Below are positions 18,408 through 51,400 of a stretch of 64,000 nucleotides of DNA, piece by piece. The notes below the pieces were generated by a model. The model saw only the letters and a list, made by a program, of their open reading frames with translations, searched no databases and had not been told where the DNA came from. Within the stretch, counting starts at the first letter, position 1. Each line of letters starts with the position of its first letter. Origin of the DNA: Membranipora membranacea (Eukaryota > Bryozoa > Gymnolaemata > Cheilostomatida > Membraniporidae). The position numbers and the translations under genes were made by a program. The stretch lies in NCBI GenBank assembly GCA_914767715.1, contig OU612068.1, forward strand, positions 308,001-372,000, written 5' to 3'.

Positions 18408-19554
18408 CCGGGACAACTCCTCACTTAGGAAATTCATCGTCATACTATCAAAGTATCCATCCAGGCATAACGTGCAAAGCTGTTCAAATTAGTTATTATA
18501 CATTAACAGTGTATAAATGTTTTCAAAGCTCAAAAAACTTATAAGAAGGCATGTAAATCATTGATATATACCTGTATATTTCTGAGCTGGTTGTAGCTAC
18601 CCACACAGTGTATTGTTTTGTGTGACAGCCGCTCAAGTATTACCATGTTTATTATCGATCCTCTGATAAGCACTCTGTTCTTGTAGCCATAATTGACTGC
18701 TGATAGATGATGTGTACTCTAAATTCTCAGTGTGTGCATTTTTTCGTTTCTATGAAGATTTGAAGTTTATCTCATAACTTTGCCTACAGCTAGTATATTG
18801 TCAATGTTCACAAAGCAAGAACTTAACTCATCCTCAATCAATTATAGCTGAACATTTTCCATCACGGAGTAGAAAATCACCGATATCATTTCAGACTTAA
18901 AAGTAAATAACATGGTAAATGATGCATAGTTAGAGGATATAATTAATGTATTTATTTTGTTGATGTATAGATTGAAGAATATTTTCAATATAAACACACA
19001 AGGAGATTGCTGTCTAAATCATATCATATGCATGGAATGTTTGTACCAGAAATCAATCAGACTTATAACAGAGATACACGATTCAGACATGTACTGGGGG
19101 GGGGGGGGGGGATATATAGTCCTCAGACAAGCTGACAAAAGGAAAAATTGCAATTGATAAAAAATACTTTAGGCAATGCTGGGTAGCTGGTTTATGTATA
19201 TTATTTGGCATGTAGGTTTTTATCTAGATGATATATTGACTAATATTGACGACTAAATATTAATCTGCTGGTGTATCAACTACAAGTAGAATTTAATGGT
19301 GCAGAACATTACAAGGTTCGATGATGTAGAAGTGATTCAAATGAGGAGGAAGTGATGTCCTAATAGTTGATACAGATTACTAATGTATACCAGTAACTGT
19401 ACAGCAGTAGCTTGGTTGTGTTATGACATGAGGGAGCCTGTTTCCTTGTTAGTTGTATGACATACAGTAGCTAATTTTTGGTGTTATATTAATAAGAGAC
19501 CCTGAGTTTCAGACTCATGAGGTATTTACAGTGAACAACAGACAGCCAGTTTTG
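18408..19554. other. Intergenic gap between DNAJB11 and NAGS 3' ends (copy A)
   Basis: Non-coding in my reading. It holds a poly-G run at about 19097-19110, which is absent from copy B, and AT-rich 3' flanks. The copy B counterpart is 27895-29061. Confidence 0.55.
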
Positions 19555-19727
19555 TCACTGAGCTCCTTTTTGTTTTGTAGTCTTGTTTCCTTCACCTCCA
19601 TCAACAAATGAATCGGGGCGTGTCTCGCACTCTTCCACTAATGCGTGTAAATCCTGTGCACTCATCCCATACCTATAAAATGAGAATACAGGCTAATATA
19701 CACTTGATTGCGATGTTCATTGTGGTG

Positions 19728-20100
19728 GATGGATGGATTTTATTACTATCACTGACAAAATGAGTCGCGAAATACAGTGTAATTGCTGGCACTTTGAATC
19801 AGCAAGAAAAAGCGAAGACACTTGGAATAAAAAATCAAATCTCTGTCTAAAAAAGTATTTCGTTTAAAACAGTCTCTCCCCAGTGAGCTTCTATGTTTTA
19901 CTGTACAGTATCTGCCAGATGGACATTTACTCAACAAACCATTGATGAAATGATCCTCATCGTGAATATAGCATAAGGCCAGGGTTCGTGTCTGATTGTC
20001 CATCATGGTATAAATATCGGGATGTTCAATGCCTAACTTAATAGCGTCCTTGAAAATTTTGAGATCTGATTGATTAGCTATGCAGCCTATGATGCAAGTG
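19728..20100. mobile_element. 373-bp insertion specific to copy A
   Basis: This segment interrupts sequence that is continuous in copy B at 29233/29234. It begins with GATG repeats. On the minus strand it reads open as CIIGCIANQSDLKIFKDA through HDEDHFINGLLSKCP and beyond, which looks protein-like but which I do not recognise. I see no clear terminal repeats. It could be an insertion after duplication, a captured exon or retrocopy fragment, or a segment lost from copy B. Confidence 0.6.
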
Positions 20101-23100
20101 AATTTGAGCTGTGTAGTACGGCACGAGGGGCGGCTGCCTTGACAATTGGACTCTAAACTGATCACAAACAGTTGAAGAGCAAACCCCCCCCCTCCCCACG
20201 TACACTGGTTTGACTTAGACTTAGTAGTAATTAGGTGGCTACTTGCTGCAGTGAATCAACGAAGAAATAGCTGCCTCCAGTGACAGTGAACTAACATCAA
20301 TTATGTCAGTGTGTGCTGATAACCTTGTCACACAATTAACACATGCTGCTGGGGCCGGCTATAAGGAGGCTATAAGGAGGCGGTAGGCCTACTAGAGAAA
20401 GCCTTGAAGCAGCGCTCGACACATGGTTTTCATCTGGATAACTGTGTGCAGTGGTATGCACACTACTGTATGTTACATCTCACACCAAAGGGATATACAT
20501 GCTCAAGATCCCAATACCTTTTATCCAAAGTTAGGACCAGCAGATTATTAAATAGCTTCATACCGGATATCATTACGATATTAAACAACAGAGACATTCC
20601 TACACCCTCAATGTGATAGGTCACTTACTATTATTACCAAATAAATTAATCTTATCTTATAATCAAGTTTCTATACATCTCATCTTCCTCAGCAGAATGA
20701 CCACTTCATTGCATCTCATACTTCTATTAAGTTGGCTGCAGGCATGAGATGTACAGACAATGCCTCAAACCGTTCTGAGTCTCTGTTATAGTGATGTAGG
20801 GCTCAAACACAAACCTGCGATGTGCTGACATGCTACGGACTGTCTGTTTATTAAAATTGATATTTCTGAAGGCATTTAAAATTAAAAAGTAACTACTTAC
20901 CAGAAAACATGGTAGTGGTCAAGCTTAATTATCCCATCGCTTCTGACTTCATACCTGTCAATAAAAATGGTTTTTAAATAAAGTACCATGTAAACAGAGA
21001 GGGGGAGTGGTCTAGGGCCCCTGGCCTATGACATCTGGTACTCAGTCTGAGAAAACCTCAGGTACTCAGTCTGAGAAAACTTTGTGAATAAGGCTGGTCT
21101 TGTTCCATTATTTGTACATCATTTCTTTGGTATTGCTAATGCTATGATATTTAGTCAAACATTTAGCATAATAATGAAAAAAAGAGTAGTTTGAAGCAAG
21201 GGCTCAGCCAGTAGTCTGCAGACCAGATTGGCCGCTCGATTAGGACTTCCTCACATACAGTAATATAACTGCAGCAGAGGCAACTCACCAGCTGTTGAAG
21301 ACATTATTAGCCCGAGATCTCCAGAACATATTACTATAATCGTGTTTGAGCTGCTGCCACAAGATCTCACTGTTAAAGTTTCCTCTCTCTTCTTTAGATA
21401 CGGCAAACTTATCGAGATAATAAATAGCCGGCGGCAGCGAGGGGAGACAACGTACAATAGCACACGACTTCATATCAAATGTCAGGTAGATAGACTCTAG
21501 TGTATCGGGGAGGTCCCTCCAGTACTCGGCTGAGACGCGACGCTCAAACGAACTGAAACAAATTATATGGGTATAATACACATATAAAATACAACAACCT
21601 GACTTTATGGGTATAAGATTTTGTGAAGGAAATACCTAACAGTAATATCTCTTATTTCCTATCATAACTTTGCCTCCAACCAATAAATTTAATCTAATTT
21701 TAAGAGTTGTTATACAGCGTCGAAAGAGAGGGCAACTCCCTATAGTCATATTTTATTCACATAGATAATTGAAATCAGGGAGTGTAGAATTGTTAGTAAG
21801 AGAGAACAAACCTTTCAACCAGAGCAGGGAGAATACTGGACAGTTTCTTTCCTTGTTTATCCCCAATCTGCACAACGTCATCGAGACTTGAGTATCGCTT
21901 CACTGGTACCACTTTTTTAAACATTGTTCCAACACCTGAAAAAAATATCAATATTATTCTTAACACAGTAATCCTCGTAAGCTAAGGGCCAATTCCGTTA
22001 CTTATATGTTCAAATTTAATCAGGTTAGTATAACTATCATGTCCTTCTATTTGAGTTTCTCAGCTCAATTATAAAGTCTTAGGGATTTTAGGTTTAGGAC
22101 CTACTCTTACGATGGTACAAGACAACCGAGTAAGACAACCGAGTAAGACAAGTGTGATATTGTTCTTGCGTATATATCACTCACATCATCTTATTAAATA
22201 GAAAGTTATGAGAAGGTTCTGCTATACAAGGTATGAAGTTTTAGTGTTCTCTGTCAATCTTTGACAATGATATGACCTATATGGTGCAACATTCTGAGGG
22301 ATTACAACTCAGCAAAGAGACAAACATTGTTACGTACAAGAAATCTCTAAAATTGACATAGAGACTAGAGATTAGAGACTACCAGGATCTGATTTGTTGG
22401 ACTCTTTCACAGATGAAACTTGCTGATCAAGATTTTATGGTCAAAGTCGTATTGAAAACAATATAATGTACAATTATATACAGTATCTCAACTTCTCCAT
22501 CAATCAGCATATAATAATGTCTTATACAGCTGACTGTGGGCTGACAGTAAGCTGACCTACTGACCTCTCTGTGTGAGCAGCTCTGTAAGCACATCCCCAG
22601 CTGATGTAATCACATATGAGCTCTTCTTAGGTAACATCTTCAGTATATCACATACTTTACCAAACTGTAATCAAAATCTCAACTTTAACAAGGGCGCACA
22701 ACTAACAATACTTCTAAACATAGAATATATAAACACATCCCTTCAAGATTGGAAATTTGTAATATGGGGCCATGATTCAAAAACGCTAGACAACTTGTGG
22801 AGGGTTCATTTCATTCAGAAAACTTCTTCTCCAGTAAAAATTTTCAATCTGTATCTTACATCTACCAATCATCAGTATCTCTGCACTACTACTACTATTT
22901 GATATACAGGCCATTTCTTAGCATTTCATATTTCATAGCTTGAACATCATAACTGGAGGTGAGATAACAGAATGATTGAGTAGAGCACAGCAGCTATAGA
23001 TAGTGATTGAGTAGAGCACAGCAGCTATAGATAGTGATTATAAGATAAGACTTACTCTGTCAGCGATATCGTCATTCCACCACGGCTGACCTTCAAACTT

Positions 23101-23342
23101 CTGTAACTCAGATTCTCTGGGTAAAAACACGGTAGTTACTCTCTGTAATAAATAACAAATATCATTGTGGGAGCTTTTAATTTGCTTAATCTATCCAGGC
23201 AGATTGAGTGCCCTATATTAATTACTTTTTGGATTTTCTTTTGACCACATCATATATGGAAGAGAGAAGAAGAAGAAGAAGACAGATTAAGACATAATGA
23301 TATACACGACGAGTAGAGAGTAGACTATGACTAACCCAGATC

Positions 23343-23455
23343 AAGTTTAATCCAATTGCCTGCATTGCAGTTGCTCCTTTCCACTGGTCACGCCTGACCA
23401 GTGGATCGGGAGCAACTTCGAATGAAGGCAATTGGACCAAACTTGGTTTATGACT
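23343..23455. repeat. Long imperfect hairpin beside the NAGS exon-6 donors (copy A)
   Basis: Arms of about 49 bp (AAGTTTAATCCAATTGCCTG on the left, returning through CAATTGGACCAAACTT) with a short centre. In the NAGS transcript it lies immediately after the tandem donor array. The same structure is in copy B at about 32482-32590. Confidence 0.8.
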
Positions 23456-23534
23456 CACCTGACCCTTGTGACTGTGACTCACCTGACCCTTGTGACTGTG
23501 ACTTACCTGGCCCTTGTGACTGTGACTTACCTGG
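23456..23534 (-). repeat. 24-bp tandem donors at NAGS exon 6 (copy A, 4 donors)
   Basis: On the minus strand the end of exon 6 (CACAAGGGCCAG then GTAAGT) is repeated four times at a 24-bp period, each with GTAAGT or GTGAGT. The unit is in frame and stop-free, so each downstream donor would add eight residues, VSHSHKGQ. Copy B has three donors. Confidence 0.9.
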
Positions 23535-23824
23535 CCCTTGTGATCGTTGATTCCTCCTGTAGAGTTTAGTAGTATAACTTTGAGAGGTTTAGTATAAGCT
23601 GACAGAGCGTGTGCTCCTTCATCTAGCTGTACTAGTCCTAGTTTACCCTCATCGCTCTCCCCCACACAGGCTATAACTGGTATACTAGAGACGTGTGATG
23701 TCATCCAGTCTAACTGATCTCTGTTTAGTGACTGCAGCCTAATCAACACAGTACACAGTCAGATTAATACAGAACTGAAAACACTGCAGGGTAAACATCA
23801 AATTTAGTAGAGTTTCTCACTCAC

Positions 23825-23918
23825 CATTCCCATTCTCATCAAAAACTTTCATTAGAGCATCCAAATACCAAAATTGTTTCCTAAACCATGTCCCCATGAG
23901 TTGAAAATGGTGCAGACG
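23825..23918 (-). other. EF-hand-like cryptic exon in NAGS intron 5 (copy A)
   Basis: A 94-nt minus-strand segment is bounded by a good acceptor (GTTTCAG) and donor (GTGAGT). In one frame it encodes an amphipathic stretch ending LMKVFDENGNG, whose DxNxNG pattern resembles the start of an EF-hand loop. If spliced between NAGS exons 5 and 6 it would be read in another frame and hit a TAA, so it would act as a poison exon. The same exon is at 32939-33032. It may belong to no gene at all. Confidence 0.35.
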
Positions 23919-24129
23919 CTGAAACAAACAGATCTTTTTTCCACCAATGAACGATTTTCAAGATAGGCCAATTTCAGCTCCGCTTTGCTATGCTGTGTGT
24001 GCCAAAGAGTACCCAAATAGAAAGGACAACTCCGATGATATGCTTAAATTCAAGCTCAAAAAAATTTGTCTAATTTAACCGACACTGTCTTTATGCCTGG
24101 GAGGATGAGGTATATATATGTATATATAT

Positions 24130-25370
24130 ATGGCAGAACACACACGGTGTAGACTGTAGATGCACAGAACACACACGGTGTAGACTGTGGATGCACAGAA
24201 CACACATGTGATGTAGACTGTAGATGCACAGAACACACACGGTGTAGATTGTGGATGCACAGAACACACATGTGATGTAGACTGTAGATGCACAGAACAC
24301 ACACGGTGTAGACTGTGGATGCACAGAACAGACATGTGATGTAGACTGTAGATGCACAGCACACACACGGTGTAGACTGTGGATGCACAGAACACACATG
24401 TGATGTAGACTGTGGATGCACAGAACACACATGTGATGTAGACTGTAGATGCACAGAACACACACGGTGTAGACTGTGGATGCACAGAACACACATGTGA
24501 TGTAGACTGTAGATACACAGAACACACACGGTGTAGACTGTGGATGCACAGAACAGACATGTGATGTAGACAGTAGATGTACAGAACACACACGGTGTAG
24601 ACTGTGGATGCACAGAACACACATGTGATGTAGACTGTAGATGCACAGAACACACACGGTGTAAACTGTGGATGCACAGAACAGACATGTGATGTAGACT
24701 GTAGATGCACAGAACACACGGTGTAGACTGTGGATGCACAGAACAGACATGTGATGTAGACTGTAGATGCACAGAACACACACAGTGTAGACTGTGGATG
24801 CACAGAACACACATGTGATGTAGACTGTAGATGCACAGAACACACACGGTGTAGACTGTGGATGCACAGAACAGACATGTGATGTAGACTGTAGATGCAC
24901 AGAACACACGGTGTAGACTGTGGATGCACAGAACAGACATGTGATGTAGACTGTAGATGCACAGAACACACACAGTGTAGACTGTGGATGCACAGAACAC
25001 ACATGTGATGTAGACTGTAGATGCACAGAACACACACGGTGTAGATTGTGGATGCACAGAACACACATGTGATGTAGACTGTAGATGCACAGAACACACA
25101 CGGTGTAGACTGTGGATGCACAGAACAGACATGTGATGTAGACTGTAGATGCACAGAACACACACGGTGTAGACTGTGGATGCACAGAACACACATGTGA
25201 TGTAGACTGTGGATGCACAGAACACACATGTGATGTAGACTGTAGATGCACAGAACACACACGGTGTAGACTGTGGATGCACAGAACACACATGTGATGT
25301 AGACTGTAGATACACAGAACACACACGGTGTAGACTGTGGATGCACAGAACACACATGTGATGTAGACTG
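24130..25370. repeat. About 32/64-bp minisatellite (copy A)
   Basis: An array of a roughly 32-bp monomer (core GTAGACTGTAGATGCACAG), mostly arranged as a 64-bp dimer alternating GTGTAGACTGTGG and GATGTAGACTGTAG forms. All three minus-strand frames are open for over 400 codons only because the unit lacks stops; this is not a gene. The duplication junction lies at its right end. Confidence 0.96.
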
Positions 25371-26306
25371 TAAATAAAAGCTATTTGCGAGAGCCGTAAT
25401 GTTTCTATTTTTATAATTATCTCTTATTGATCTTATCTTAACAGGTGGTAAGGAGAAAGAGAGTACCAAAACCAGCTAAAGGTACACGAGAATGTAACTG
25501 TCGACAAGAGATGATAACTCAACAGATCGGACAGGGCAGATTTACTATGACTCAACAACAAGTGTGTGACGAGTGTCCTAACGTCAAGTAAGTCTGGTGA
25601 TGTCACGGTGATGTCAAGTAAGTCATGTTATGTCAGGGTGTCACTTGTACCTCACAGGCAGAGAATCCATAATCTTAGAATTCTAATTCCACTTTAACGC
25701 TCATATGGCTTATTATTATATCGGAGAATCTTCTTCAGCAAGGAGCTCTTGAAAAATCAAAACGTCCTAATATTCTAGGAGCTGTGTGTGTTTTTATTAT
25801 TCTGTAGGGTATTGTAAGATTCAGTATAAACACCATGAGCGTGGTTCTGAACTGAATTTTCTGTAACAACCGCTAAAGTCATCTCATCATCATTAATGGG
25901 GGCCCTAATAAGAATTTTCTGGTTTTTTTCCACTTATATCAATTAGTTGGCCGGAGTGTCTGATTTTGTCTTAATGAGCAGCTCCACATATAGAGTTTTT
26001 CTCCAGGTGACATATTGTTATGACACTCCTCTCTCTCTCTCTCACACCTACAGATTAGTTACTGAGGAGAGAGTATTAGAAGTAGAGATAGAGCCAGGTA
26101 TGAGAGACGGACAGGAGTATCCATTCGTCGCTGAGGGAGAACCTCACATAGACGGAGAACCAGGAGATCTCAAGTTCAGAATAATGCAAACAAAGCATCC
26201 TAGATTTGAGCGTAGGGGAGAGGATCTATTCACTAATGTTACTCTCTCACTAGTCGAGGCACTTACCGGCTTCGAGTATCATATACCTCATCTAGATGGT
26301 AGAAAG

Positions 26307-26384
26307 GTGAGCCAATCACACCGGGCCAATCACACCGGGCCAATCACACCGGGCCAATCACACCGGGCCAATCACACCGGGCTC
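26307..26384 (+). repeat. 15-bp repeat after DNAJB11 exon 5 (copy B)
   Basis: The unit CCAATCACACCGGGC occurs about five times just after the exon-5 donor. Copy A (17170-17202) has about two. The difference shows that the site changes copy number quickly. Confidence 0.9.
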
Positions 26385-27486
26385 CACCGCCAAACAATAT
26401 ACAAAAAACTGAATTCTTTTTGCCTCAACAAATAAATAGGGCAGGAGTTTAGCGATTGCATAAAAGTAACTCTAAACTGACTCTAAATTTTGCAGAAGGT
26501 ATAGTGATGGTTTGGTAATAATCTCAAGTTTTTTGTTTCACTTATTAATCATTTGTCTGTTTATGCTAATATTATGTTGAGTTATTATGTTAGGTTACTT
26601 GTCATCTTCTGATTGGTCCCTTCAGATGCATGTAGTTCCCTGTCTACCAGGAAGTGCTTTAGTTATATGTGTGTAAAGTGTAATGAGCTGTATACTATAA
26701 TAGCTGAGCTGGTTATAGCTGAGTGAGGCGGCTTTACAGCTACTCATACAAATCATCAACTCAGGTTTTATTTATTCTACTAAAGTCTACTGCACATGAG
26801 TAACTTAGGTTGATAGAGATCATACTGTGACATGTAAGTGTCACTATGGCATACTGTTAGGCCGTAATATAGCTAAACTAACACCTCATAATAAACAAAA
26901 CCCTGGTCCTCAACAGCAGGTAAAAATAACCAGTCAGAGTGAGGAGATAGTGAGCTCCTGTCTCAGCCTATATCTCAGCCTATATCTCAGCCTATATCTC
27001 AGCTCACTATTTATTAACCAGGTGAAAGTAACTCGAGAGAAGGTGACATGGCCAGGAGCTAAGATAAGAAAATCAGGAGAAGGAATGCCTAACTATGAGA
27101 ACAATAATGTCAAAGGATCTCTATATATTACATTCGATGTACAGTTCCCAAAAATAGAATTTAGCGAAGAGGAAAAGAAATGTAAGTAATGGCTAATATA
27201 TTCTTGTTCACGGATGGTTATATGAATTATTGACCTTATGACCCGGGAGATTGGCAGTCCTGTCACCTGTCACCTTAACAATGTACATTATATTTTATTC
27301 AATCGAAATATCAACTTCCTATAAGTTCTACTAGGCCTTCAGAGCAGGGCTGCTCCTGACTATAAGTTGTTCAATTGTTAATCCCCCAAAGTAGTTTTAT
27401 GCAACCCTTAATCTCCTGCACCTGTCGACTGACTGATGGTGGCCATCAATACTGCGTAGGTTGACATGCTTGTTTTCAAGATAGGA

Positions 27487-27786
27487 TTAAGATGAGGTCA
27501 ACAATTTGTCTTCGATATAATCACAATCCACAAATCATTTGTTTGCCTCAAGGTTAGCTAAAAAATAATCATGAAATCTGTCTTGACAATCCATTATAAT
27601 ATACTTCTGAATAATGCTGATGACAGTCCATACAATTAAGGTTATTTTGAGCACTTTTATTGGCATTTGATGTCGACCTTTGTGATCATGCTTCCCATAT
27701 AATGCCGAAAAAAGAAGTGGAATCAATAAACGAAATAAAAGGACATATTTGACAGATTTGGTCCTTTAATATTCCTGTTTTCTCCA
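27487..27786. mobile_element. 300-bp segment specific to copy B
   Basis: Sequence absent from the matching place in copy A (between GATAGGA and TTTGTTAACTC, near 18300). It is AT-rich, without a clear ORF or terminal repeats. Either an insertion in B or a deletion in A. Confidence 0.5.
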
Positions 27787-27894
27787 TTTGTTAACTCACT
27801 GCTTTTATTTCTTATTGTAGTATTAGAATCAGTCCTCGGACCAAAGTATGAGAACTTTAAGAGTCGGTCGTATAACGGACTCCAGGGCTTCTGA

Positions 27895-29061
27895 CCGGGA
27901 CAACTCCTCACTTAGGAAATTCATCGTCATACTATCAAAGTATCCATCCAGGCATAACGTGCAAAGCTGTTCAAATTAGTTATTATACATTAACAGTGTA
28001 TAAATGTTTTCAAAGCTCAAAAAACTTAAAAGAAGGCATGTAAATCATTGATATATAACTGTATATTTCTGAGCTGGTTGTAGCTACCCACACAGTGTAT
28101 TGTTCTGTGTGACAGCCGCTCAAGTATTACCATGTTTATTATCGATCCTCTGATAAGCACTCTGTTCTCGTAGCCATAATTGACTGCTGATAGATGATGT
28201 GTACTCTAAATTCTCAGTGTGTGCATTTTTTCGTTTCTATGAAGATTTGAAGTTTATCTCAAACCTTTGCCTACAGCTAGTATATTGTCAATGTTCACAA
28301 AGCAAGAACTTAACTCATCCGCAATCAATTATAGCTGAACATTTTCCATCACAGAGTAGAAAATCACCGATATCATTTCAGACTTAAAAGTAAATAGCAT
28401 GGTAAATGATGCATAGTTAAAGGATATAAGTAATGTATTTATTTTGTTGATGTATAGATTGAAGAATATTTTCAATATAAACACACAAGGAGATTGCTGT
28501 CTAAATCATATCATATGCATGGAATGTTTGTACCAGAAATCAATCAGACTTATAACAGAGATACACGATTCAGACATGTACGGGGATATATAGTCCTCAG
28601 ACAAGCTGCTAACAGTCAAATGAGTGAGATAACTTTTAAAAGGAAAAATTGCAATTGATAAAAAAAATACTTGGATTAGGCAATGCTGGGTAGCTGGTTT
28701 ATGTATATTATTTGGCATGTAGGTATTTATCTAGATGATATATTGACTAATATTGACGACTAAATATTAATCTGCTGGTGTATCAACTACAAGTAGAATT
28801 TAATGGTGCAGAACATTACAAGGTTCGATGATGTAGAAGTGATTCAAATGAGGAGGAAGTGATGTCCTAATAGTTGATACAGATTACTAATGTATACCAG
28901 TAACTGTACAGCAGTAGCTTGGTTGTGTTATGACATGAGGGAGCCTGTTTCCTTGTTAGTTGTAAGACATAAAGTAGCTAATTTTTGGTGTTATATTAAT
29001 AAGAGACCCTGAGTTTCAGACTCATGAGGTATTTACAGTGAACAACAGACAGCCAGTTTTG
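27895..29061. other. Intergenic gap, copy B
   Basis: The counterpart of 18408-19554. Nothing coding was seen. It lacks the poly-G run and has a small extra segment at about 28608-28640. Confidence 0.55.
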
Positions 29062-32000
29062 TCACTGAGCTCCTTTTTGTTTTGTAGTCTTGTTTCCTTC
29101 ACCTTCATCAACAAATGAGTCGGGGCGTGTCTCGCACTCTTCCACTAATGCGTGTAAATCCTGTGCACTCATCCCATACCTGTAAAATGAGAATACAGGC
29201 TAATATACACTTGATTGCGATGTTCATTGTGGTGAATTTGAGCTGTGTAGTACGGCACGAGGGGCGGCTGCCTTGACAATTGGACTCTAAACTGATCACA
29301 AACAGTTGACAAGCAAACCCCCCCCCCCCACGTACACTGGTTTGACTTAGACTTAGTAGTAATTAGGTGGCTACTTGTTGCAGTGAATCAACGAAGAAAT
29401 AGCTGCCTCCAGTGACAGTGAACTAACATCAATTATGTCAGTGTGTGCTGATAACCTTGTCACACAATAAACACATGCTGCTGGGGCCGGCTATAAGGAG
29501 GCTATAAGGAGGCTGTAGGCCTACTAGAGAAAGCCTTGAAGCAGCGCTCGACACATGGTTTTCATCTGGAGAACTGCGTGCAGTGGTATGCACACTACTG
29601 TATGTTACATCTCACACCAAAGGGATATACATGCTCAAGATCCCAATACCTTTTATCCAAAGTTAGGACCAGCTTCATACCGGATAGCATTATGATATTA
29701 AACAACAGAGGCATTCCTACACCCTCAATGTGATAGGTCACTTTCTATTATTACCAAATAAATGAATCTTATCTTATAATCAAGTTTCTATACATCTCAT
29801 CTTCCTCAGCAGAATGACCACTTCATTGCATCTCATACATCTATTAATTTGGCTGCAGGCATGAGACGTACAGACAATGCCTCAAACCGTTCTGAGTCTC
29901 TGTTATAGTGATGTAGGGCTCAAACACAAACCTGCGATGTGCTGACATGCTACGGACTGTCTGTTTATTAAAATTTATATTTCTGAAGGCATTTAAAATT
30001 AAAAAGTAACTACTTACCAGAAAACATGGTAGTGGTCAAGCTTAATTATCCCATCGCTTCTGACTTCATACCTGTCAATAAAAATGGTTTTTAAATAAAG
30101 TACCATGTAAACAGAGAGGGGGAGTGGTCTAGGGCCCCTGGCCTATGACATCTGGTACTCAGTCTGAGAAAACCTCAGGTACTCAGTCTGAGAAAACTTT
30201 GTGAATAACGCTGGTCTTGTTCCATTATTTGTACATCATTTCTTTAGTATTGCTAATGCTATGAAATTTAGTCAAACATTTAGCATAATAATGAAAAAAA
30301 GAGTAGTTTAAACAAGGGCTCAGCCAGTAGTCTGCAGACCAGAGTGGCCGCTCGATTAGGACTTCCTCACATACAGTAATATAACTGCAGCAGAGGCAAC
30401 TCACCAGCTGTTGAAGACATTATTAGCCCGAGATCTCCAGAACATATTACTATAATCGTGTTTGAGCTGCTGCCACAAGATCTCACTGTTAAAGTTTCCT
30501 CTCTCTTCTTTAGATACGGCAAACTTATCGAGATAATAAATAGCCGGCAGCGAGGGGAGACAACGTACAATAGCACACGACTTCATATCAAATGTCAGGT
30601 AGATAGACTCTAGTGTATCGGGGAGGTCCCTCCAGTACTCGGCTGAGATGCGACGCTCAAACGAACTGAAACAAATTATATGGGTATAATACACATATAA
30701 AATATAACAACCTGACTTTATGGGTATAAGATTGTGTGAAGGAAATACCTAACGGTAATATCTCTTATTTCCTATCATAACTTTGCCTCCAACCAATAAA
30801 TTTAATCTAATTTTAAGAGTTGTTATACAGCGTCGAAAGAGAGGGCAACTCCCTATAGTCATATTTTATTCACATAGATAATTGAAATCAGAGAGTGTAG
30901 AATTGTTATTGAGGGAGAACAAACCTTTCAACCAGAGCAGGGAGAATACTGGACAGTTTCTTTCCTTGTTTATCTCCAATCTGCACAACGTCATCGAGAC
31001 TTGAGTATCGCTTCACTGGTACCACTTTTTTAAACATTGTTCCAACACCTGAAAAAAATATCAATATTATTCTTAACACAGTAATCCTCGTAAGCTAAGG
31101 GCCAATTCCGTTACTTATATGTTCAAATTTAATCAGGTTAGTATAACTATCATGTCCTTCTATTTGAGTTTCTTAGCTCAATTATAAAGTCTTAGGGATT
31201 TTAGGTTTAGGACCTACTCTTACGATGGTACAAGACAACCGAGTAAGACAACCGAGTAAGACAACCGAGTAAGACAAGTGTGATATTGTTCTTGCGTATA
31301 TATCACTCACATCATGTTATTAAATAGAAAGTTATGAGAAGGTTCTGCTATACAAGGTATGAAGTTTTAGTGTTCTCTGTCAATCTTTGACAATGATATG
31401 ACCTATATGGTGCAACATTCGGAGGGATTACAACCCAGCAAAGAGACAAACATTGTTACGTACAAGAAATCTCTAAAATTGACATAGAGACTAGAGATTA
31501 GAGACTACCAGGATCTGATTTGTTGGACTCTTTCACAGTTGAAACTTGCTGATCAAGATTTCATGGTCAAAGTCGTATTGAAAACAATATAATGTACAAT
31601 TATATACAGTATCTCAACTTCTCCATCAATCAGCATATAATAATGTCTTATACAGCTGACTGTGAGCTGACAGTAAGCTGACCTACTGACCTCTCTGTGT
31701 GAGCAGCTCTGTAAGCACATCCCCAGCTGATGTAATCACATATGAGCTCTTCTTAGGTAACATCTTCAGTATATCACATACTTTACCAAACTGTAATTAA
31801 AATCTCAACTTTAACAAGGGCGCACAACTAACAATACTTCTAAACATAGAATATATAAACACATCCCTTCAAGATTGGAAATTTGTAATATGGGGCCATG
31901 ATTCAAAAACGCTAGACAACTTGTGGAGGGTTCATTTCATTCAGAAAACTTCTTCTCCAGTTAAAATTATCAATCTGAATCTTACATCTACCAATCATCA

Positions 32001-35000
32001 GGATCTCTGCACTACTACTACTATTTGATATACAGGCCATTTCTTATCATTTCATATTTCATAGCTTGAACATCATAACTGGAGGTGAGATAACAGAGTG
32101 ATTGAGTAGAGCACAGCAGCTATAGATAGTGATTGAGTAGAGCACAGCAGCTATAGATAGTGATTATAAGATAAGACTTACTCTGTCAGCGATATCGTCA
32201 TTCCACCACGGCTGACCTTCAAACTTCTGTAACTCAGATTCTCTGGGTAAAAACACGGTAGTTACTCTCTGTAATAAATAACAAATATCATTGTGGGAGC
32301 TATTAATTTGCTTAATCTATGCAGGCAGATTGAGTGCCCTATATTAATCACTTTTTAGATTTTCTTTTGACCACATCATATATGGAAGAGAGAAGAAGAA
32401 GAAGAAGAAGAAGAAGAAGACAGATTAAGACATAATGATATACACGACGAGTAGAGAGTAGACTATGACTAACCCAGATCAAGTTTAATCCAATTGCCTG
32501 CATTGCAGTTGCTCCTTTCCACTGGTCACGCCTGACCAGTGGATCGGGAGCAACTTCGAATGCAGGCAATTGGACCAAACTTGGTTTATGACTCACCTGA
32601 CCCTTGTGACTGTGACTTACCTGACCCTTGTGACTGTGACTTACCTGGCCCTTGTGATCGTTGATTCCTCCTGTAGAGTTTAGTAGTATAACTTTGAGAG
32701 GTTTAGTATAAGCTGACAGAGCGTGTGCTCCTTCATCTAGCTGTACTAGTCCTAGTTTACCCTCTTCACTCTCCCCCACACAGGCTATAACTGGTATACT
32801 AGAGACATGTGATGTCATCCAGTCTAACTGATCTCTGTTTAGTGACTGCAGCCTAATCAACACAGTACACAGTCAGATTAATACACAACTGAAAACACTG
32901 CAGGGTAAACATGAAATTTAGTAGAGTTTCTCACTCACCATTCCCATTCTCATCAAAAACTTTCATTAGAGCATCCAAATACCAAAATTGTTTCCTAAAC
33001 CATGTCCCCATGAGTTGAAAATGGTGCAGACGCTGAAACAAACAGAACTTTTTTCCACCAATGAACGATTTTCAAGATAGGCCAATTTCAGCTCCGATTT
33101 GCTATGCTGTGTGTGCCAAAGAGTACCCAAATAGAAAGGACAACTCCGATGATATGCTTAAATTCAAGCTCAGAAAAATTCGTCTAATTTAGCAGACACT
33201 GTCTTTATGCCTGGGAGGATGAGGTTTATATATATATGGCAGTACACACACGGTGGAGACTGTGGATGTACAGAACACACACGGTGGAGACTGTGGATGT
33301 ACAGAACACACACGGTGTAGACTGTGGATGTACAGAACACAAACGGTGTAGACTGTGGATGTACAGAACACACACGGTGGAGACTGTGGATGTACAGAAC
33401 AGACATGTGATGTAGACTGTAGATGCACAGAACACACACGGTGTAGACTGTGGATATACAGAACACACATGTGATGTAGACTGTAGATGCATAGAACACA
33501 CACGGTGTAGACTGTGGATGTACAGAACAGACATGTGATGTAGACTGTAGATGCATAGAACACACACGGTTGAGACTGTGGATGTACAGAACACACATGT
33601 GATGTAGACTGTAGATGTACAGAACACACACGGTGTAGACTGTGGATGCACAGAACAGACATGTGATGTAGATTGTAGATGCACCGAACACACACGGTGT
33701 AGACTGTGGATGCACAGAACACACATGTGATGTAGACTGTAGATGTACAGAACACACACGATGTAGACTGGAGATGCACAGAACACACATGGTATAGATA
33801 GACTATAGATGTGCAGACCACACGCATGGTTGAGACTGTAGACTTAGTCCCCTATATTATTACGGGAGGGAGGGAGGGAGGGAGGGATTCTTACCTGAAT
33901 GATGAATCTGTGTTGAAGAGATGTCCACCATCAAATACCGGAGTAGTTCTTGTCCCGCACTCCTCAAATCTGTCAACTAGTGTCTTAATATTCCTGTATA
34001 TCTCTTCTCTCTTACACTGAAGATAAACCATACAAATATATAAGATCTGCCTGTAATAAGTTATGTAATTAATATATATCAATCATATCTATATTGAAAG
34101 ATGACTGTCGGTGAGTTTTTGGGGAAAATATGGCAAGTTGAAATGACGATGTTACTTGGATCATAATAAATTTTGTATTATTCAAATATTTGTAACCTTA
34201 GGACGGCGCTGTATAATTTAAGAACCAAATTAAAAATGATTTGGGCACACTGACTTGTGACTGTTTGTTATGTAGAAGTGGTAAGATATCATCAACAATG
34301 TACAAGGCAAGATATCATCAACAATAATAATTAAATACAGTAAAATTTTAAGAGCAGTCATTAACCTAATTCTATGGACTTACACATTAACCTAATTCTA
34401 TGGACTTACACATTAACCTAATCCTATGGACTTACACATTAACCTAATTCTATGGACTTACACATTAACCTAATTCTATGGACTTACACATTAACCTAAT
34501 CCTATGGACTTACACATTAACCTAATCCTATGGACTTACACATTAACCTAATTCTATGGACTTACACATTAACCTAATTCTATGGACTTACACATTAACC
34601 TAATTCTATGGACTTACACATTAACCTAGAATTAATAATACCACTTATATTGATCTTTTCCTACAGCTGGTTGAAATAACATAGGGCCCCCCCCCCCCCT
34701 ACTTATAGTATAGATTATAGATGACCATTTCTTAGCTTATAGGCTTGTAGGCTTATAGATAGATGCAAGTAAAGATATAGATTTATAGATGTTATCAATG
34801 TAAAGATATAGATTTATAGATTTCTTAATGTATCTCTAAAGTGCTGTCAGTGCTGTGTGTCTCCTGTGCTCTCTTTGTGTGTGTATGTATGGTCGTTGTG
34901 TAGCAAAGCAAACATTCAGATATGTTTACAATCTAATGGGTTTTCCCCAGGTTTAAGTTTATAGATTGGGATTCTTAATTTATAGATATTATAGACAGTC

Positions 35001-38000
35001 CTGTGTGGGGGGAGCCCCAACATAAACTGTCTGAGACTAAATTTCAAGCTGTCGGGACAGCAGATTCAGGCCTTATATTGGGCACTCCGGAAACAGAACA
35101 GAACTTTGGATTAGACTGAAGTTAGCGGAATTTTGGTTCACTTTATGAAATAGTTTGAAATTACATCTACAAAAGACACACTTTTACCAGGATTTAAATT
35201 AGGCCTATTAATATGATTGGCTACATTATGATTCCACACACTCTAAGTAAATTCAGAAAAAAATTCTTTCTCATGACTAAAACCTACGATACATGAACAT
35301 GAACCTAGTCATCTCCACATACCCCTATCATTCCATCCCATGTCTACAAATGCGGATAGCGAGTCGAAATTCTATTCTTATGCATTCTACTATGTTTATA
35401 TGCACCCTAGCCCAGTAGTGTTATCTGATCATATGATAGAGGAAGGTACTGACCTTATGTGACTGAGAGTTGGGAGGTTTAGTAGAGCCGACTAAAAGTA
35501 CTAAATTCATCTTATTCTACTGTAAGTAGTGTTATATCTGATCATATGATAGAGGAATGTACTGACCTTATGTGACTGAGAGTTGGGAGGTTTAGTGGAG
35601 CCGACTAAAAGTACTACATTCATCTTATTCTGCTGTAAGTAGTGTTATATCTGATCATATGATAGAGGAAGGTACTGACCTTATGTGACTGAGAGTTTGG
35701 AGGTTTAGTGGAGCCGACTAAAAGTACTACATTCATCTTATTCTGCTGTGAGTAGTGTTATATCTGATCATATGATAGAGGGAGGTACTGACCTTATGTG
35801 ACTGAGAGTTGGGAGGTTTAGTGGAGCCGACTAAAAGTACTATATTCATCTTATTCTGCTGTAAGTAGTGTTATATCTGATCATATGATAGAGGGAGGTA
35901 CTGACCTTATGTGACTGAGAGTTGGGAGGTTTAGTGGAGCCGACTAAAAGTACTACATTCATCTTATTCTGCTGTAAGTAGTGTTATATCTGATCATATG
36001 ATAGAGGAAGGTACTGACCTTATGTGACTGAGAGTTGGGAGGTTTAGTGGAGCAGACTAAAAGTACTACATTCATCTTATTCTGCTGTAAGTAGTGTTAT
36101 ATCTGATCATATGATAGAGGGAGGTACTGACCTTATGTGACTGAGAGTTGGGAGGTTTAGTGGAGCCGACTAAAAGTACTATATTCATCTTATTCTGCTG
36201 TAAGTAGTGTTATATCTGATCATATGATAGAGGAAGGTACTGACCTTATGTGACTGAGAGTTGGGAGGTTTAGTGGAGCCGACTAAAAGTACTACATTCA
36301 TCTTATTCTGCTGTAAGTAGTGTTATATCTGATCATATGATAGAGGGAGGTACTGACCTTATGTGACTGAGAGGTGGGAGGTTTAGTGGAGCCGACTAAA
36401 AGTACTACATTCATCTTATTCTGCTGTAAGTAGTGTTATATCTGATCATATGATAGAGGAAGGTACTGACCTTATGTGACTGAGAGTTGGGAGGTTTAGT
36501 AGAGCCGACTAAAAGTACTACATTCATCTTATTCTGCTGTAAGAAGTACATACTAAGAGATAATGTCTCTAGGATAGTTCTCCTCATATCACCATTCCTT
36601 TTAGCTTCCTAACAAATAGACATAATCACAGCATACAAATTACATTTGTATCATAGTAATTAATCAGGTGACACCATGCAAAGTTTTGTTCTGTATTTAG
36701 TAAAGTAACAGCATGGCGTTTTTATATATTGAGAACATAGCATTGTGGGGGGAGGGGCGTTTCATGTTCCATAAAAGAGCTTTAGTTCCTGACACGTATT
36801 AATTCTCACATCATGTGTTCATAGGATTTAAAATCGAAAGTTAAAGGGCAACCAAGGTTTCGCAGCAATGCATTAATGGGTAACAAATAATGTGCTGGGC
36901 AGCATCAGCTTTGTGCATTACGCGATACAAAACTCAAAGTAGTTGCTGACTCTAAGCTGGGTAACACTTCAGTTTAGGGGAAGTTCCAAGACTTTGCTGT
37001 AATAATTATAGAGCACAGGCTAAATAATAACAGGAACAGGAAACTGCTATGTGGTATTCTCTTTTAGATGAGTTTGAGTACCCTGATGGAAGAAATGTTT
37101 CACAAGAATTCTGGCTGAATAATCATCCGAATTATATTTTGTCTTTTTCCCCATGCAGAAGGTGTAATCTGCTATTAATCAATGGCCATCAATGAGAAGT
37201 TGTTTGAAAACTTGGTTGCCCTTTAAAACTTATAATGATTATACCCATTGATTAAAGGTTTATACATCGTGATTCATTGAAGCCAATATTGCTTGAAATG
37301 CACCATCTTTTGTTATAATAAGCCCTTGTTTGTCCATCATTGAGTTTTTCCCTATAGATGTGGCACACTACTCGTAGCAGAGAAAGCTTTGATCTTATAC
37401 CTGATCCTCCATTTCCTGTCTGAAGACATCTTCGGTGATCTGAATAACAGCGAATGGTTTACACGGATCTGTAGCCTGACTGAAATACTTCATCCAGTAT
37501 CTCACCTCTCTCTGATCGGGACGTACCTAAACAAACAATCACATCTACAGTATATACCCCTCGTATACACATCTACAGTATATACCCCTCGTATACACAT
37601 CTACAGTATATAACCCTCGTATACACATCTACAGTATATACCCCTTATATACACATCTACAGTATATACCCACATATACGCAACTACAGTATATACCCCT
37701 CATATACACATCTACAGTATATACCCCTCATATACACATCTACAGTATATACCCCTTATATATACATCTACAGTATATGCCCCTCATATACACATCTACA
37801 GTATATACTCCTCATTTACACATCTACAGTATATACCCCTCACACACATCCCAATACACATGGATCAGTTGAAGACTTCCTACATACCAAGATATCGTGG
37901 TCAGGCAGCAAGCACTGCTATTGGAATGCAAGATTTTTCAGTCAAAAAGCTCCTACCTCTTTTGGATAATAAAAGGAAATTAGGAATTACCCTCTCCTTC

Positions 38001-39786
38001 TTGAGCTGTCTAGTCATAGATTGAAACAACACATAGTGAACGCTTAATGGACCTGTATATTAAAGGGCAACCAAGGTTTCGCAGCAATGCATTACTGGAT
38101 AGCAAATAATGTGCGGGGCGGCATCAGCTTTGTGCATTACGCGATGCAAAACTCAAAGTAGTTGCTGACTCTAAGCTGGGTAACACTTCAGTTTTGGGAA
38201 GGTTCCAAGACTTTGCTGTAATAATTATAGAGCACTGGCTAAATAATAACAGGAACAGGAAACTGCTATGTGGTATTCTCTTTTAGCTGAGTTTGAGTAC
38301 CTGATGGAAGAAACGTTTCACAAGAATTCTGGCTGAATAATCATCCGAATTATATTTTGTCTTTTTCCCCATGCAGATGGTGCTATCTGCTATGAATCAA
38401 TGGCCATCAATGAGAAGTTGTTCGAAACCTTGGTTGCACTTTAAACTCCATACCCACACGACTACATCATATTTGATCAAGAAGGGAATTCTTGATCACA
38501 TCTGTCATTTTTTTCCCAAAATATGCTTGGATTTGTGAACTGTTTGAATCTAGGTTCAGCCCAGCAAGAACTACAAGAAGTAGTTGCCTGTGTAGTCTTG
38601 CCTGTGTAGTCTGTATTGCCTGTATTGCGTTGTGTATTGGTGCCTGGTATTGTGTTGCCTGTATTGCCTGTGTAGTCTTAAAAACCCAACCCTCGATGCA
38701 GAATCTAAATATCCCTATACATCATACATGGCAGTCAAGAATTCAGTCACTTTTTGGGTAAAACACCTCTCACTATGTTGGTATAGGTCATGAAACATGA
38801 TTGTATCTCATGTTGAGAAAATGGGTTATTTCAACAACAATCAATCTCGATATCTGAGATTACCAGAACCAAGAATGCTAAGATTACCTCGTCAAAGAAC
38901 CACTGCAACATAGGAACCCCATTCAGCATCGGATTGGAGTGTCTGCTACAATAACAAATACAGAGACAAGTAACGGCACAGTGATCAGATCTAAGTAACA
39001 ATACTATGAACATGTATCACTAGGGTGAATGAACAACCTATCAATGGTAAAATATATCAAACTTTATCTCAGGTTGTTGACAATTTTTGAGATTAAGTTA
39101 AACGCAACTTTTTCTTTTCAATAATCACTCGTGCTGATCATGATAGTTATTGAGCTGTCATGTATTCTTTTGATTAATTGAAGGTGATTAGCATACAGGC
39201 AAGAGGTATTGTTTGGTGACCGATATAACTCTCATATCCTGCAGTCAAAATATGAGGTGATGAGATCAGGTGATTAAAACTACCGATCTCATCTGTGAAT
39301 ATACAAATTCTGATTTATTCACAGTGCAATAAACTAGCCTTGTCACGGGCTTTGGTTTTTTGGTTTTGGGAACCAAAAAACCAAAGCCCGTGACAAGGCT
39401 ACTAATAATGCCCTTGAACAGGACATTGTGAGATTATCGAGCGTTCCATTAATAGAGCAGAAGCCATATGAACTCTCTACTAGTAATTATCTCTGGACTG
39501 ACCATCAACCCCCATCTGTGTATGGAAGCATGGCTCATAAACCAAGCCCACCAGAGCTCATGATGTATTATCTGTAGCTGTGCTGTACTTACTTGGCTTG
39601 CTGTGCTGTAGTAGTGTGGTGACGTTGTGACGTTGTATTATTTGGATGTTTTGTAGACACGGATGAAGTGCTCCGACATGATCTCAGGTTCTCTCTGAAT
39701 GATGTCTTATATAGATCATCAGCTCCTCCCTTCCACAGACATTTATGAAAGAGGCGCACAGCTTGTGTGGTCATTCGGGAATTCAT
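29062..39786 (-). CDS. NAGS: N-acetylglutamate synthase, mitochondrial (NAGS)
   Basis: NAGS makes N-acetylglutamate from acetyl-CoA and glutamate in the mitochondrial matrix; in urea-cycle animals this activates carbamoyl-phosphate synthetase 1. Twelve exons join in frame on the minus strand: 39786-39593, 38945-38888, 37526-37401, one copy of exon 4 (ten occur at 35454-36536), 34016-33895, 32852-32645, 32268-32182, 31790-31691, 31048-30925, 30665-30405, 30071-30018 and 29179-29062. This gives 505 aa with one exon-4 copy, near the vertebrate length. The Arg/Ser/Thr-rich, acid-poor N-terminus (about 60 aa) looks like a mitochondrial presequence. The inactive amino-acid-kinase domain spans about 85-330 (REVRYWMKYF, VFDGGHLF, LKVILLNSTGG, SSYVITSAGDVLTELL). 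The acetyltransferase domain spans about 360-500 (YYLDKFAVS, MFWRSRANNVFNSW, YEVRSDGIIK). Exons 6-12 come from duplication copy B. Exon 4 amplification and the tandem exon-6 donors are described separately. Confidence 0.93.
32390..32420. repeat. (GAA)n microsatellite
   Basis: About nine GAA units in a NAGS intron; copy A at about 23264-23281 has about six. Confidence 0.9.
32482..32590. repeat. Long imperfect hairpin (copy B)
   Basis: Copy B equivalent of the 23343-23455 inverted repeat. It is again directly downstream, in transcript sense, of the NAGS exon-6 donors. Confidence 0.8.
32591..32648 (-). repeat. 24-bp tandem donors at NAGS exon 6 (copy B, 3 donors)
   Basis: Three in-frame donors at a 24-bp period. 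This copy belongs to the complete NAGS gene, so use of the second or third donor would insert 8 or 16 residues (VSHSHKGQ units) right after the GGINDHKGQ loop of the kinase-like domain. Confidence 0.88.
32939..33032 (-). other. EF-hand-like cryptic exon (copy B)
   Basis: Same 94-nt acceptor-to-donor segment as at 23825-23918, with no visible coding difference. It lies in the intron between NAGS exons 5 and 6 of the complete gene. Confidence 0.35.
33237..33838. repeat. About 32-bp minisatellite (copy B)
   Basis: Shorter version of the copy A array (about 0.6 kb against 1.24 kb), with more divergent monomers at both ends. A (GGGA)n run follows at about 33862-33888. NAGS exon 5 (33895-34016) starts only a few bases beyond. 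Confidence 0.95.
34352..34630. repeat. 26-bp minisatellite in NAGS intron 4
   Basis: About ten copies of a unit like CATTAACCTAATTCTATGGA plus CTTACA. On the minus strand every unit contains GTAAGT, a donor-like motif, although no exon is adjacent. Confidence 0.95.
35443..36546 (-). repeat. NAGS: NAGS exon 4 amplified ten times (113-bp unit)
   Basis: Ten head-to-tail 113-bp units. Each contains a full 66-nt exon with acceptor (CTTACAG), donor (GTCAGT) and 47 nt of intron. Exon copies run 35454-35519, 35567-35632, 35680-35745, 35793-35858, 35906-35971, 36019-36084, 36132-36197, 36245-36310, 36358-36423 and 36471-36536. The peptide is QNKMNVVLLVGSTKPPNSQ plus SHK, phase 0 at both ends, and fits the first strand of the NAGS kinase-like domain. 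Copies differ by few substitutions (LVG to LVC in the 36019 copy; N to T in the 36358 copy). The acceptor is a NAGNAG pair in most copies. The 35454 copy has TAG in place of the second CAG, so it must skip that codon to avoid a stop. Confidence 0.93.
36845..37222. mobile_element. TTAA-flanked MITE, copy 1
   Basis: A 378-bp element with terminal inverted repeats (AGGGCAACCAAGGTTTCG at left; right end AACTTGGTTGCCCT), flanked by TTAA on both sides, as in piggyBac-type target duplications. A second copy lies 0.8 kb away. No ORF. It sits in a NAGS intron. Confidence 0.75.
37545..37845. repeat. About 26-bp minisatellite in NAGS intron 2
   Basis: About eleven copies of a unit like ATACACATCTACAGTATATA plus CCCCTC. 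On the minus strand each unit holds CTGTAG, an acceptor-like motif. The array starts within 20 bp of the true acceptor of the exon at 37401-37526. Confidence 0.92.
38064..38440. mobile_element. TTAA-flanked MITE, copy 2
   Basis: Same element as 36845-37222 in the same orientation, about 377 bp, again with TTAA on each side and a few substitutions and indels. Confidence 0.75.
39335..39401. mobile_element. Perfect foldback element (31-bp arms)
   Basis: Starts TAGCCTTGTCACGGGC and ends with its exact reverse complement, with a 5-nt loop. It shares its termini with the hairpin at 7615-7681. It lies in NAGS intron 1. Confidence 0.7.
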
Positions 39787-48493: not shown

Positions 48494-51400
48494 ATGCCTT
48501 GTGTTGCTGAAATGGCGTCAAAGATTGTCCACAATGGGATTGAGACAAGCGAAGCCGTCACATATCAGGGATGGGAGCCCGGCAAAGAGTACACCAAAAA
48601 TATTGTTCTGAAGAATGTCAAGGTCAAAACACAAAAAATCACTTACAAGTAAGTACCTAACATCTTGTGTTCTGTTTGCTCTATAATACAGTTAGTTGAT
48701 ACTAATGGATGTCAAACTGTTACTTGTCTTTTAGCCCATTATGATCTTATCAATAATTGGTTAGTGGGTGAGGGTTGATTTTCAATGTTAATAGTGTGAC
48801 CATTGTAATTTTACACTTGTTAGAATGAATCATTATACAGTATACCTTTTTGTTACAGCTCACCATCCTCAAGGTTCTTCTCTACACTTTATCCAAAACA
48901 AATAACTCTGAGTGCCGGAACAAGCTATGTGCTGCCTGTCACCTTCAGACCTCTGGAGAAAAACATCTATGAGGATCAAATCCAGTTTGCTTCCAAGGTG
49001 ATGATTAACCTGATAATTTGAGTTGTGAATTTATCATTTAGGTACTGACACCTTCAATCTAATCAAGTTTTTCCTTCCCTGAATATTCATGTTCCGAGCC
49101 AATAAATCTGTTATGATAGATCCTTCAACAATGTACTATGCGAGGATCTGTTATTGATGTTTAATCTAAACTCACCTCTTATTTCTAGGATGGAGATTTT
49201 GCTATTCCTATAAAGGCTGTCCTACCTGTATTCAATGTTGGTACACCAGAACAGATGACATTAACTACTTGTGCTGTGAAGGATGAAACCCAACTTCACT
49301 TCACCATCACCAATAAAAGGTAAGTACAGCTCTGCATATTACTACATCAAATTTATAACCTGCTGTCCAATATTGGTCAGATTCAATCTAAGCGTAAATA
49401 CAATTACAAAAGGCTTAGGAGAAATTTCCTCTCATAAACAGATATCCCATATGGCTTTTTTTCTTTCACAGTGAACTGGTCACTCCCTTTCAGTGGGATG
49501 TACAGGAGCCATTCTCTATAGAACCATCCAGTGGAACGCTAAAGCCTTTCGGAACTGCTAAGATGACTGTCTATTTCAGACCAACAGTGAGTTAATTATA
49601 TTTCTCTGTGTATTAACTTAGTTAGCCACAGATATCTCTGATGAGCCAATGTATTCAGTAATCCTGATTAACAGTAATAAAATATCATTATCCATGTCTC
49701 TGTACAACTAGAACTGAAGCATACCATGACAAAACACAAATCAACATTTTGTTCATTTTTGGAATGCATTCTGTAATGCTACTTGATTAATTTCAGGCTG
49801 CTTTGGTTTATCAGTGCCAGGCAAAATGTTTACATGGAACTAACCTTGATTCAGTGGCTACCACTATCCTCGACGGAACAGGTATGTTGTCACAAGTTAA
49901 CGTAAGCTTAGTACAAATTGTCGTTTTCTCTCATACATCTTGTAACACTTGACAAAAACACAGAAAGCATAATAGTACAGGTATCAGTTTCAGTAGACTT
50001 TCTAAACCCTAATCAATGAACCTAATGCTAATGATGATATTAATGATTGTAAATTTACAGGTAAATACCCACTGCTGCTGATAGCTGCAGCAAACAAACC
50101 ATATGACAGATTCACTCAGGCTACGCTTGACTTTGGTCATGTACCAATCAGCACGGAGGTAATCAGGACTATCGAAGTCTTCAATCAGGCTCAGGTAATT
50201 GTTACACAATGATACGGGATATGTCTGTGTGTCTATTTAATAATGAGGATTTACAGGCCAACATAATCCGATCTCAGAATATTTATTTGCTGATGCGACG
50301 CTGTTGCCTGATGCTGATGCTGATGATGGTTGTTTTGTGTTTGCAGGTTGAAGCTAAGTGTACAATCGAGCAGCCTACGAGTGTAGCCTCTCTGGATACT
50401 GTATTCTCTCTGGCAGCTACTAGGATTATAGTACCTCCTATGAGCTCTGTCACCGTACAGGTAAGTCATATCACTGTATGACAAACTGTCCGTCTTACAA
50501 TCTACATTTTGGCCAACTGCTTGTATGATGGCATGAGTGAGTTTAAGGTTAACAAGCTGTTAGATACCCAGTAATGAGCCTTCTATGTTTACAGGTGAAG
50601 TACAGGCCGATGAATGTCGGCACATCAAGTATAGATTACATGTACATCAGTTCTATAAGTGATATAAGGAAGATGTGCATCAAGTGTACCGGCCATTGTA
50701 CAGGTGAGACAAAACATAACTCAATAGTAAAACTTGCTATCTGAACAAAGACTTGAATAGATCTGAACCACTTCAATAGGCTAGAAGATTTACACACCCA
50801 TGCATGCATCCGCCCGGAGCTTTGTAGGATGGAGGGCCAGGATCAACCTGAGTGATGAGTGTTTTTCTGCTTATTCCATGACCGGTCTTTTGTGTCAGAT
50901 AACTTGATATCATGTTTATTATTTCAGGTCCCAAGGTCAGCCTCTCAGTAAACCTGATTAACTTCTCACTGATAAACGTGGGAGAGTCAGCGACTAAAAC
51001 ACTGGAGATAACTAACCAATCAGATGCTGTCACTCACTATCAGTTCAAACTGGACTGTGCAGAGAGTGTATATAAGTTTGACTATCCTGAGGGACAACTG
51101 GCTCCTGGGCAAACTAAGAAGATCATCATTAAGTTCTGGCCTACTCACGCCATCAACTATTACAGGAATATCGCCTGTGTGGTGGATAATCAGGTAATTA
51201 TGTTATGTGGGTCGACATTGTTGCAGTAGACACTCCAAAATACAAACCATGTGATACAAAATATCCAGCTATCTGCTAGTCCAATGGTATGATAGTCACA
51301 CACACAACAATGTTTATTCATATACACATCTTTTTTTCTGTGTTCTTTTTACAAACCAAATATTGTCTGAAGTTGTCTGCCTAATATGTCTGAGGAGAAA

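Follow-up and report, generated by a model that had tools for sequence, protein, structure and literature searches.

The window, the 64-kb stretch of the Membranipora membranacea genome analysed here (C4:308001-372000; the genome searched comprised 339,339,785 bases in 18 contigs), carries NAGS on the minus strand, with DNAJB11 and CFAP65 on the plus strand. The NAGS exons were located by tblastn with a human NAGS sequence, and were modelled by spliced alignment to the Watersipora subatra orthologue (P0001, 517 aa) with our own script, in which donors are restricted to GT or GC, acceptors to AG, and introns to lengths of at least 30 nt. The best public protein match was the same W. subatra NAGS, with 64% identity across the whole 418-aa model. 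PDB NAGK/NAGS chains matched model residues 97-391, and PDB 4k30 (mitochondrial NAGS) matched part of the NAT domain. Judged by these similarities, the gene is NAGS, as the earlier note had proposed, with an amino-acid-kinase-like domain followed by a NAT domain, and is orthologous to animal NAGS. With the Pfam AA_kinase family, the exon-6 piece scored under the family cut-off, and the genome search gave no match at NAGS and only two places near C4:24.48 Mb. A search for literature on NAGS in bryozoans found none.

CFAP65 (+) occupied 48494-61029 and was modelled with 30 exons by alignment to W. subatra CFAP65 (P0121), its pieces being 66% identical to that orthologue, which was also their best public match. 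Twenty-eight of its 29 introns measured 134-421 nt and one 938 nt. Between 43825 and 46591 (+), reading frames resembled LINE-type fragments by eye (endonuclease-like and reverse-transcriptase-like). The features of the NAGS locus are listed in Table 1.

Table 1. Features of NAGS and of its boundary arrays, in window positions.
Feature	Position	Strand	Basis
NAGS (N-acetylglutamate synthase), 12 coding exons, 11 GT-AG introns; last few codons outside the model	29098..39786	-	Spliced alignment to W. subatra NAGS P0001
Exon 3, first strand of the kinase-like domain (KPFAVIQI)	37401..37526	-	tblastn, spliced alignment, model
True exon 4, 138 nt, phase 0/0; last 66 nt = copy 1	36471..36608	-	Spliced alignment
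First 72 nt of exon 4 (EAKRNGDMRRTILETLSLSMYFLQ)	36537..36608	-	Only the last 5-7 nt present in copies 2-10
113-bp tandem array	35414..36547	-	TRF (period 113) and junction comparison
Copy 1 (66 nt), 3' part of the authentic exon 4	36471..36536	-	Segment listing, spliced alignment
Copies 2-9 of the 66-nt segment with 47-nt spacers, putative pseudo-exons within intron 4	35567..36423	-	Sequence comparison
Copy 10, downstream edge copy, starts TAG	35454..35519	-	Sequence comparison
Exon 5, acceptor placed at tatcttcag/TGT (34016; aligner's choice 34010)	33895..34016	-	Spliced alignment
24-bp array over the exon-6 donor; three in-frame donors CAG/GTAAGT, CAG/GTAAGT, CAG/GTGAGT	32589..32657	-	TRF, junction comparison
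Counterpart of this 24-bp array, with four donors, in the duplicate of the NAGS 3' half	23451..23543	-	TRF, junction comparison

Exon 4 of NAGS and the 113-bp array

The earlier note had described ten 113-bp units, close to a minisatellite, each holding a complete 66-nt exon. The ten units and their minisatellite-like character were borne out by TRF (10.1 copies, 97% matches), and the interval given for them (35443-36546) was slightly shorter than the array. On the minus strand, ten 66-nt segments followed one another at 113-nt spacing, with 47 nt between neighbours and phase 0 at both ends, and the donor AAG/GTCAGT stood at the 3' edge of the segment in 10 of 10 copies. Ten matches to the 66-mer, a count to be read as a lower bound, were returned by a DNA search of the whole genome, all of them inside the array; amplification of the exon elsewhere in the genome was rejected on this result.

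The 66 nt did not prove to be a complete exon. Spliced alignment to P0001 gave an exon 4 of 138 nt (36608-36471) that opens at the acceptor tctatttgttag. At this exon P0001 reads RAKEKGDVKRTILETLSLSMYFLQENKMNVILLVG and the window EAKRNGDMRRTILETLSLSMYFLQQNKMNVVLLVG; the orthologue keeps ...RTILETLSLSMYFLQ/ENKMNV ungapped across the start of the repeat, and 19 of the 24 residues encoded 5' of the 66-mer were identical to P0001 (hand count from the alignment). What had been taken for the copy-1 acceptor, CTTCTTACAG, is coding and reads TAC TTC TTA CAG (then CAG). Phe146 and Leu147 (P0001 numbering), which it encodes, were invariant in 22 of 22 aligned homologues, as were Leu140 and Gly159; these 22, NAGS and bacterial homologues, were chosen from the 120 listed.

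The repeat unit consists of the last 71-73 nt of exon 4 and the first 40-42 nt of intron 4 (about 71 + about 42), and the end of exon 4 at 36471 lies inside the array, so that the tandem unit contains an exon-intron boundary. At the junction of copies 1 and 2, the intron sequence ...AACACTACT passes into the exon sequence CTTACAGCAG..., the two overlapping by 2 nt (CT). Copies 2-10 lack the first 65-67 nt or so of exon 4, which occur on copy 1 only. There is no phase-0 stop in copies 2-9, and copy 10, which begins with one, continues into unique intron 4 sequence. Because the supposed acceptor of copy 1 is coding, its Phe and Leu are invariant and exon 4 extends upstream, the repeat unit, as read from the DNA, is no exon: it spans the exon 4/intron 4 boundary. 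In a tandemly duplicated exon each copy is complete and has its own acceptor and donor; here the exon is the 138-nt one, and copies 2-10 are without its 5' part and its acceptor.

In the AlphaFold model of P0001 (mean pLDDT 81.8), helix 136-149 belongs to the exon part that copies 2-10 lack, and strand 154-158 is formed by the repeated peptide. This is the second strand, after strand 108-112, and not the first strand of the kinase-like domain, where the peptide had earlier been placed. The W. subatra protein has the repeated peptide once.

The anatomy of the exon also bears on the proposal that the copies are mutually exclusive, one of the ten entering each transcript. Spacers too short to splice can enforce exclusive exon choice, and the similar segments of the array do stand in tandem, separated by less than the shortest intron found locally. 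Nevertheless, the first 72 nt of exon 4 lie on copy 1 only (apart from the few nucleotides noted in Table 1), and any other choice would cost the protein 24 residues, among them Leu140, Phe146 and Leu147, and with these the conserved helix encoded by the first part of the exon. The copies are, moreover, near-identical, and a choice among them would gain almost nothing. As a productive scheme, exclusive choice is ruled out by the exon anatomy, and we give it hardly any credence.

Variation among the copies

Among the ten copies, 6 of the 66 exonic sites were variable and, with the diverged tail of copy 10 left out, 3 of the 47 intronic ones (Fisher p=0.73). The seven exonic changes comprised four missense, one stop and two synonymous ones, near the proportions expected under neutrality (71% missense, 25% synonymous, 4% stop). 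Pairwise differences among copies amounted to only 0-5 over 98 nt, which leaves little power for tests of neutrality; within the limits of this low-power test, the copies appear to vary as neutral sequence would. Codon 12 was TCT in the edge copies 1 and 10 and TCC in copies 2-9, copy 10 was the most divergent unit, and in copy 5 the Gly after the strand (invariant Gly159) was changed to Cys. The pattern would fit inner turnover with protected edge copies, as reported for the minisatellites across exon-intron boundaries known as mirages.

The same substitutions bear on the worry, raised in the earlier note, that the array is an assembly error and that the genome has fewer copies. Assemblies often go wrong by collapsing or expanding tandem repeats. 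A 1.1-kb array is, on the other hand, well within HiFi read length, and the units carry distinct substitutions. One mirage was aberrantly assembled in a genome draft, according to PMC3087553. PacBio HiFi reads at 66-fold depth underlie the published M. membranacea assembly, as stated in PMC10290214. On the evidence of the substitutions and of the read depth, an error of this kind is very unlikely.

Splicing potential of the copies

Splice signals and intron lengths were compared with 46 introns from three genes in the window (NAGS 11, DNAJB11 6, CFAP65 29). The shortest measured 134 nt and four were of 160 nt or less; none of the 46 was 47 nt or shorter, giving a 95% upper bound of 6.3% for such introns. 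The earlier note had held that the 47-nt spacers may be too short to splice, and by the local minimum they probably are. Because human introns of 43, 49 and 56 nt have reportedly been spliced (PMC4463651, in excerpt), we regard splicing across the spacers as unlikely here, though possible. Splicing from copy 1 directly to copy 3 would leave an intron of 160 nt, which is within the range observed locally.

With position weight matrices built from the 46 introns, the array donor scored 10.5, at the 67th percentile of the 46 real donors. The acceptor-like junctions of copies 2-10 scored 1.7-3.8, and about 7-9% of real acceptors scored lower; on the same matrices the true exon-4 acceptor scored 7.4 and the median of the 46 real acceptors was 8.1. 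In a 17-intron matrix, eight of the nine array junctions scored 4.8-5.1, above the true acceptor at 4.0, and copy 8 scored 0.5. The ranking of array and true acceptors depends on the training set (17 or 46 introns); both matrices take 34016, not the aligner's 34010, as the start of exon 5. Overall, the array seems to combine strong donors with weak acceptors, the weakness of the acceptors hinging on a small training set. Of the acceptor and donor that the earlier note had called conserved, the donor held in all ten copies, but the acceptor did not, being coding in copy 1 and near the 7th-9th percentile in copies 2-10. The statement that any number of copies would keep the frame was right as to phase 0 at both ends but not for copy 10, with its initial TAG.

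These values are relevant to the idea that the array is a series of cassette exons, in which copies 2-9 would be additional exons, every one of them lengthening the protein by 22 residues without a frame shift, so that its length would vary with the number of copies used. The 66-nt length in phase 0/0, the strong identical donors, the AG before each copy and the freedom from stops of copies 2-9 are all compatible with such exons, and a hop to a non-adjacent copy leaves an intron of at least 160 nt. The acceptors, however, are weak and the spacers only 47 nt. Coding constraint was not seen in the low-power test, with Gly changed to Cys in copy 5 and a stop in copy 10; the peptide is single in the Watersipora protein; and in the structural model each insertion would be expected to place another copy of a hydrophobic strand in the loop that precedes helix 167-187. 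Taken together, these observations make cassette exons improbable. An equally doubtful variant is that of nine incipient exons, in which weakly used junctions derived from former coding sequence (TTC TTA CAG) would let a small share of transcripts take up single non-adjacent copies in frame.

The reading that we favour, and hold to be very probably correct, is that a minisatellite lies across the 5' splice site of exon 4 of NAGS, as in a mirage, and is spliced out with intron 4. It would have arisen by tandem duplication of the end of exon 4 together with the start of intron 4. In the normal mRNA, exon 3 would be joined to the full 138-nt exon 4, closed by the first of the ten identical donors, and copies 2-10 would leave with an intron 4 of about 2.45 kb. 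The protein would then bear the peptide once, like the Watersipora orthologue, and the copies would turn over as an ordinary minisatellite, without selection as coding sequence. Reading past the first donor turns ...QSHK into VSTFLYHMIRYNTTYSRIR and then meets a stop within copy 2; use of a later donor would thus place a stop inside copy 2, so that the full protein is expected from the first donor only.

The exon-6 array and the 9-kb duplication

A second array in the same gene, of 24-bp units, lies over the donor of exon 6 (Table 1). Its three donors scored 13.7, 13.7 and 13.1 on the 46-intron matrix, and use of a later one would add 8 or 16 residues (VSHSHKGQ repeats). The array is present again in a tandem duplication of about 9 kb, whose halves lie within 16209-24720 and 25370-33824, are about 95% identical in aligned blocks, and include the 3' portions of both DNAJB11 (+) and NAGS (-). 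In the inner halves (DNAJB11 25442-27891, NAGS 23740-19597) the 5' exons were absent and the translation was free of stops. Since the duplicate halves have three and four exon-6 donors, one of these boundary arrays has changed its copy number since the duplication. The 113-bp array lies just beside the 9-kb duplication, not inside it.

A 64-bp (2 x about 32) minisatellite, CAGAACACAC..., was found at 24134-25371 (19.4 copies) and 33240-33823 (9.2 copies), at or near the ends of the duplication halves, and is possibly linked to the duplication breakpoints. A repeat of about 390 bp (AAAGGGCAACCAAGGTTTCGCAGCAATG...) was present in two copies, 95% identical, at 36841-37227 in NAGS intron 3 and 38060-38445 in intron 2.

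Tandem arrays of at least 60 bp with a period of at least 10 numbered 22 in the 64-kb window, compared with 17 in 200 kb made up of 20 sampled stretches, one of which was a single satellite array throughout. Arrays of at least 60 bp covered 9.4% of the window. Very regular minisatellites occurred at 1-355 (14 bp x 25.4, 99%) and 7708-8391 (17 bp x 40.2, 97%). Arrays were not in excess at splice sites: 5 of 120 exon ends lay inside any of the 49 TRF arrays, the 120 being the ends of 60 modelled exons, some of which are ends of a model rather than splice sites. All five overlapped ends were 3' exon ends, in a small sample in which two are mutual copies. One short tandem array, at 25583-25640, ran over the end of the first exon in the partial copy of DNAJB11, and another, at 56548-56598, over the end of exon 20 in CFAP65.

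Discussion

The NAGS array belongs to a known kind of structure and, as far as its sequence tells, is built like a mirage. In the amphioxus genes Adh3, BflGb6 and BflGb9, as in the bryozoan, minisatellite-like repeats lie across an exon-intron boundary, many of them with splice signals. Unit lengths are of the same order (10-72 bp in Adh3 and 150-160 bp in the globins; 113 and 24 bp in NAGS), edge copies escape homogenisation in both, and BflGb9 and the NAGS array both sit at the 3' boundary of an exon (PMC3087553). The two differ in host, a bryozoan here and a cephalochordate for the mirages. They also differ in number and uniformity: the NAGS array has ten copies with about 97% matches, whereas the BflGb6 haplotypes have 6 and 3 units of 81-100% identity. 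The phase 0/0 of the 66-nt segment would be a chance feature of the bryozoan array, unlike the amphioxus mirages. As presented in the excerpt of PMC3087553, the Adh3 data and globin RT-PCR suggest that regular splicing is undisturbed by mirages, and mirage clusters are unstable in length and are offered as a model of intron gain. RT-PCR is reported for amphioxus; the NAGS array is known from its DNA sequence.

Related cases are described from potato, fission yeast and human genes. In potato, an intron was gained by tandem duplication of a segment that crosses one splice boundary, the other site being a cryptic exonic one, and likewise in NAGS (PMC4974935). In NAGS it is the donor that was inherited, the acceptor-like site being former coding sequence, whereas in potato the acceptor side was inherited and the donor was cryptic. 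The potato intron is reported to be well supported as new; the bryozoan case comes from the DNA of one gene. In two fission-yeast genes, a 24-bp AGGT-containing segment underwent multiple tandem duplications, which resemble the exon-6 array of NAGS (PMC4974935). Human genes in segmental duplications contain variable minisatellites, some at exon-intron boundaries and some reportedly forming novel introns; those paralogues have transcript evidence, and here there is a single bryozoan locus (PMC2812944).

Structures named mirages were found in amphioxus only, in the literature on minisatellites and intron gain, and we make no claim to a first report. A bryozoan mirage would suggest that boundary-spanning minisatellites are not confined to cephalochordates. 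An RNA-seq run, ERR6464929, is listed with the M. membranacea assembly in the excerpt of PMC10290214. If the copies were incipient exons after all, NAGS would carry 22-residue insertions in a spectrum that shifts with repeat copy number between colonies, and new exons and introns would have been caught at birth in a minisatellite. With ten near-identical donors, one real exon end and a frame-preserving 66 nt, the locus would offer a natural test between silent removal of a boundary array and the birth of new exons and introns.
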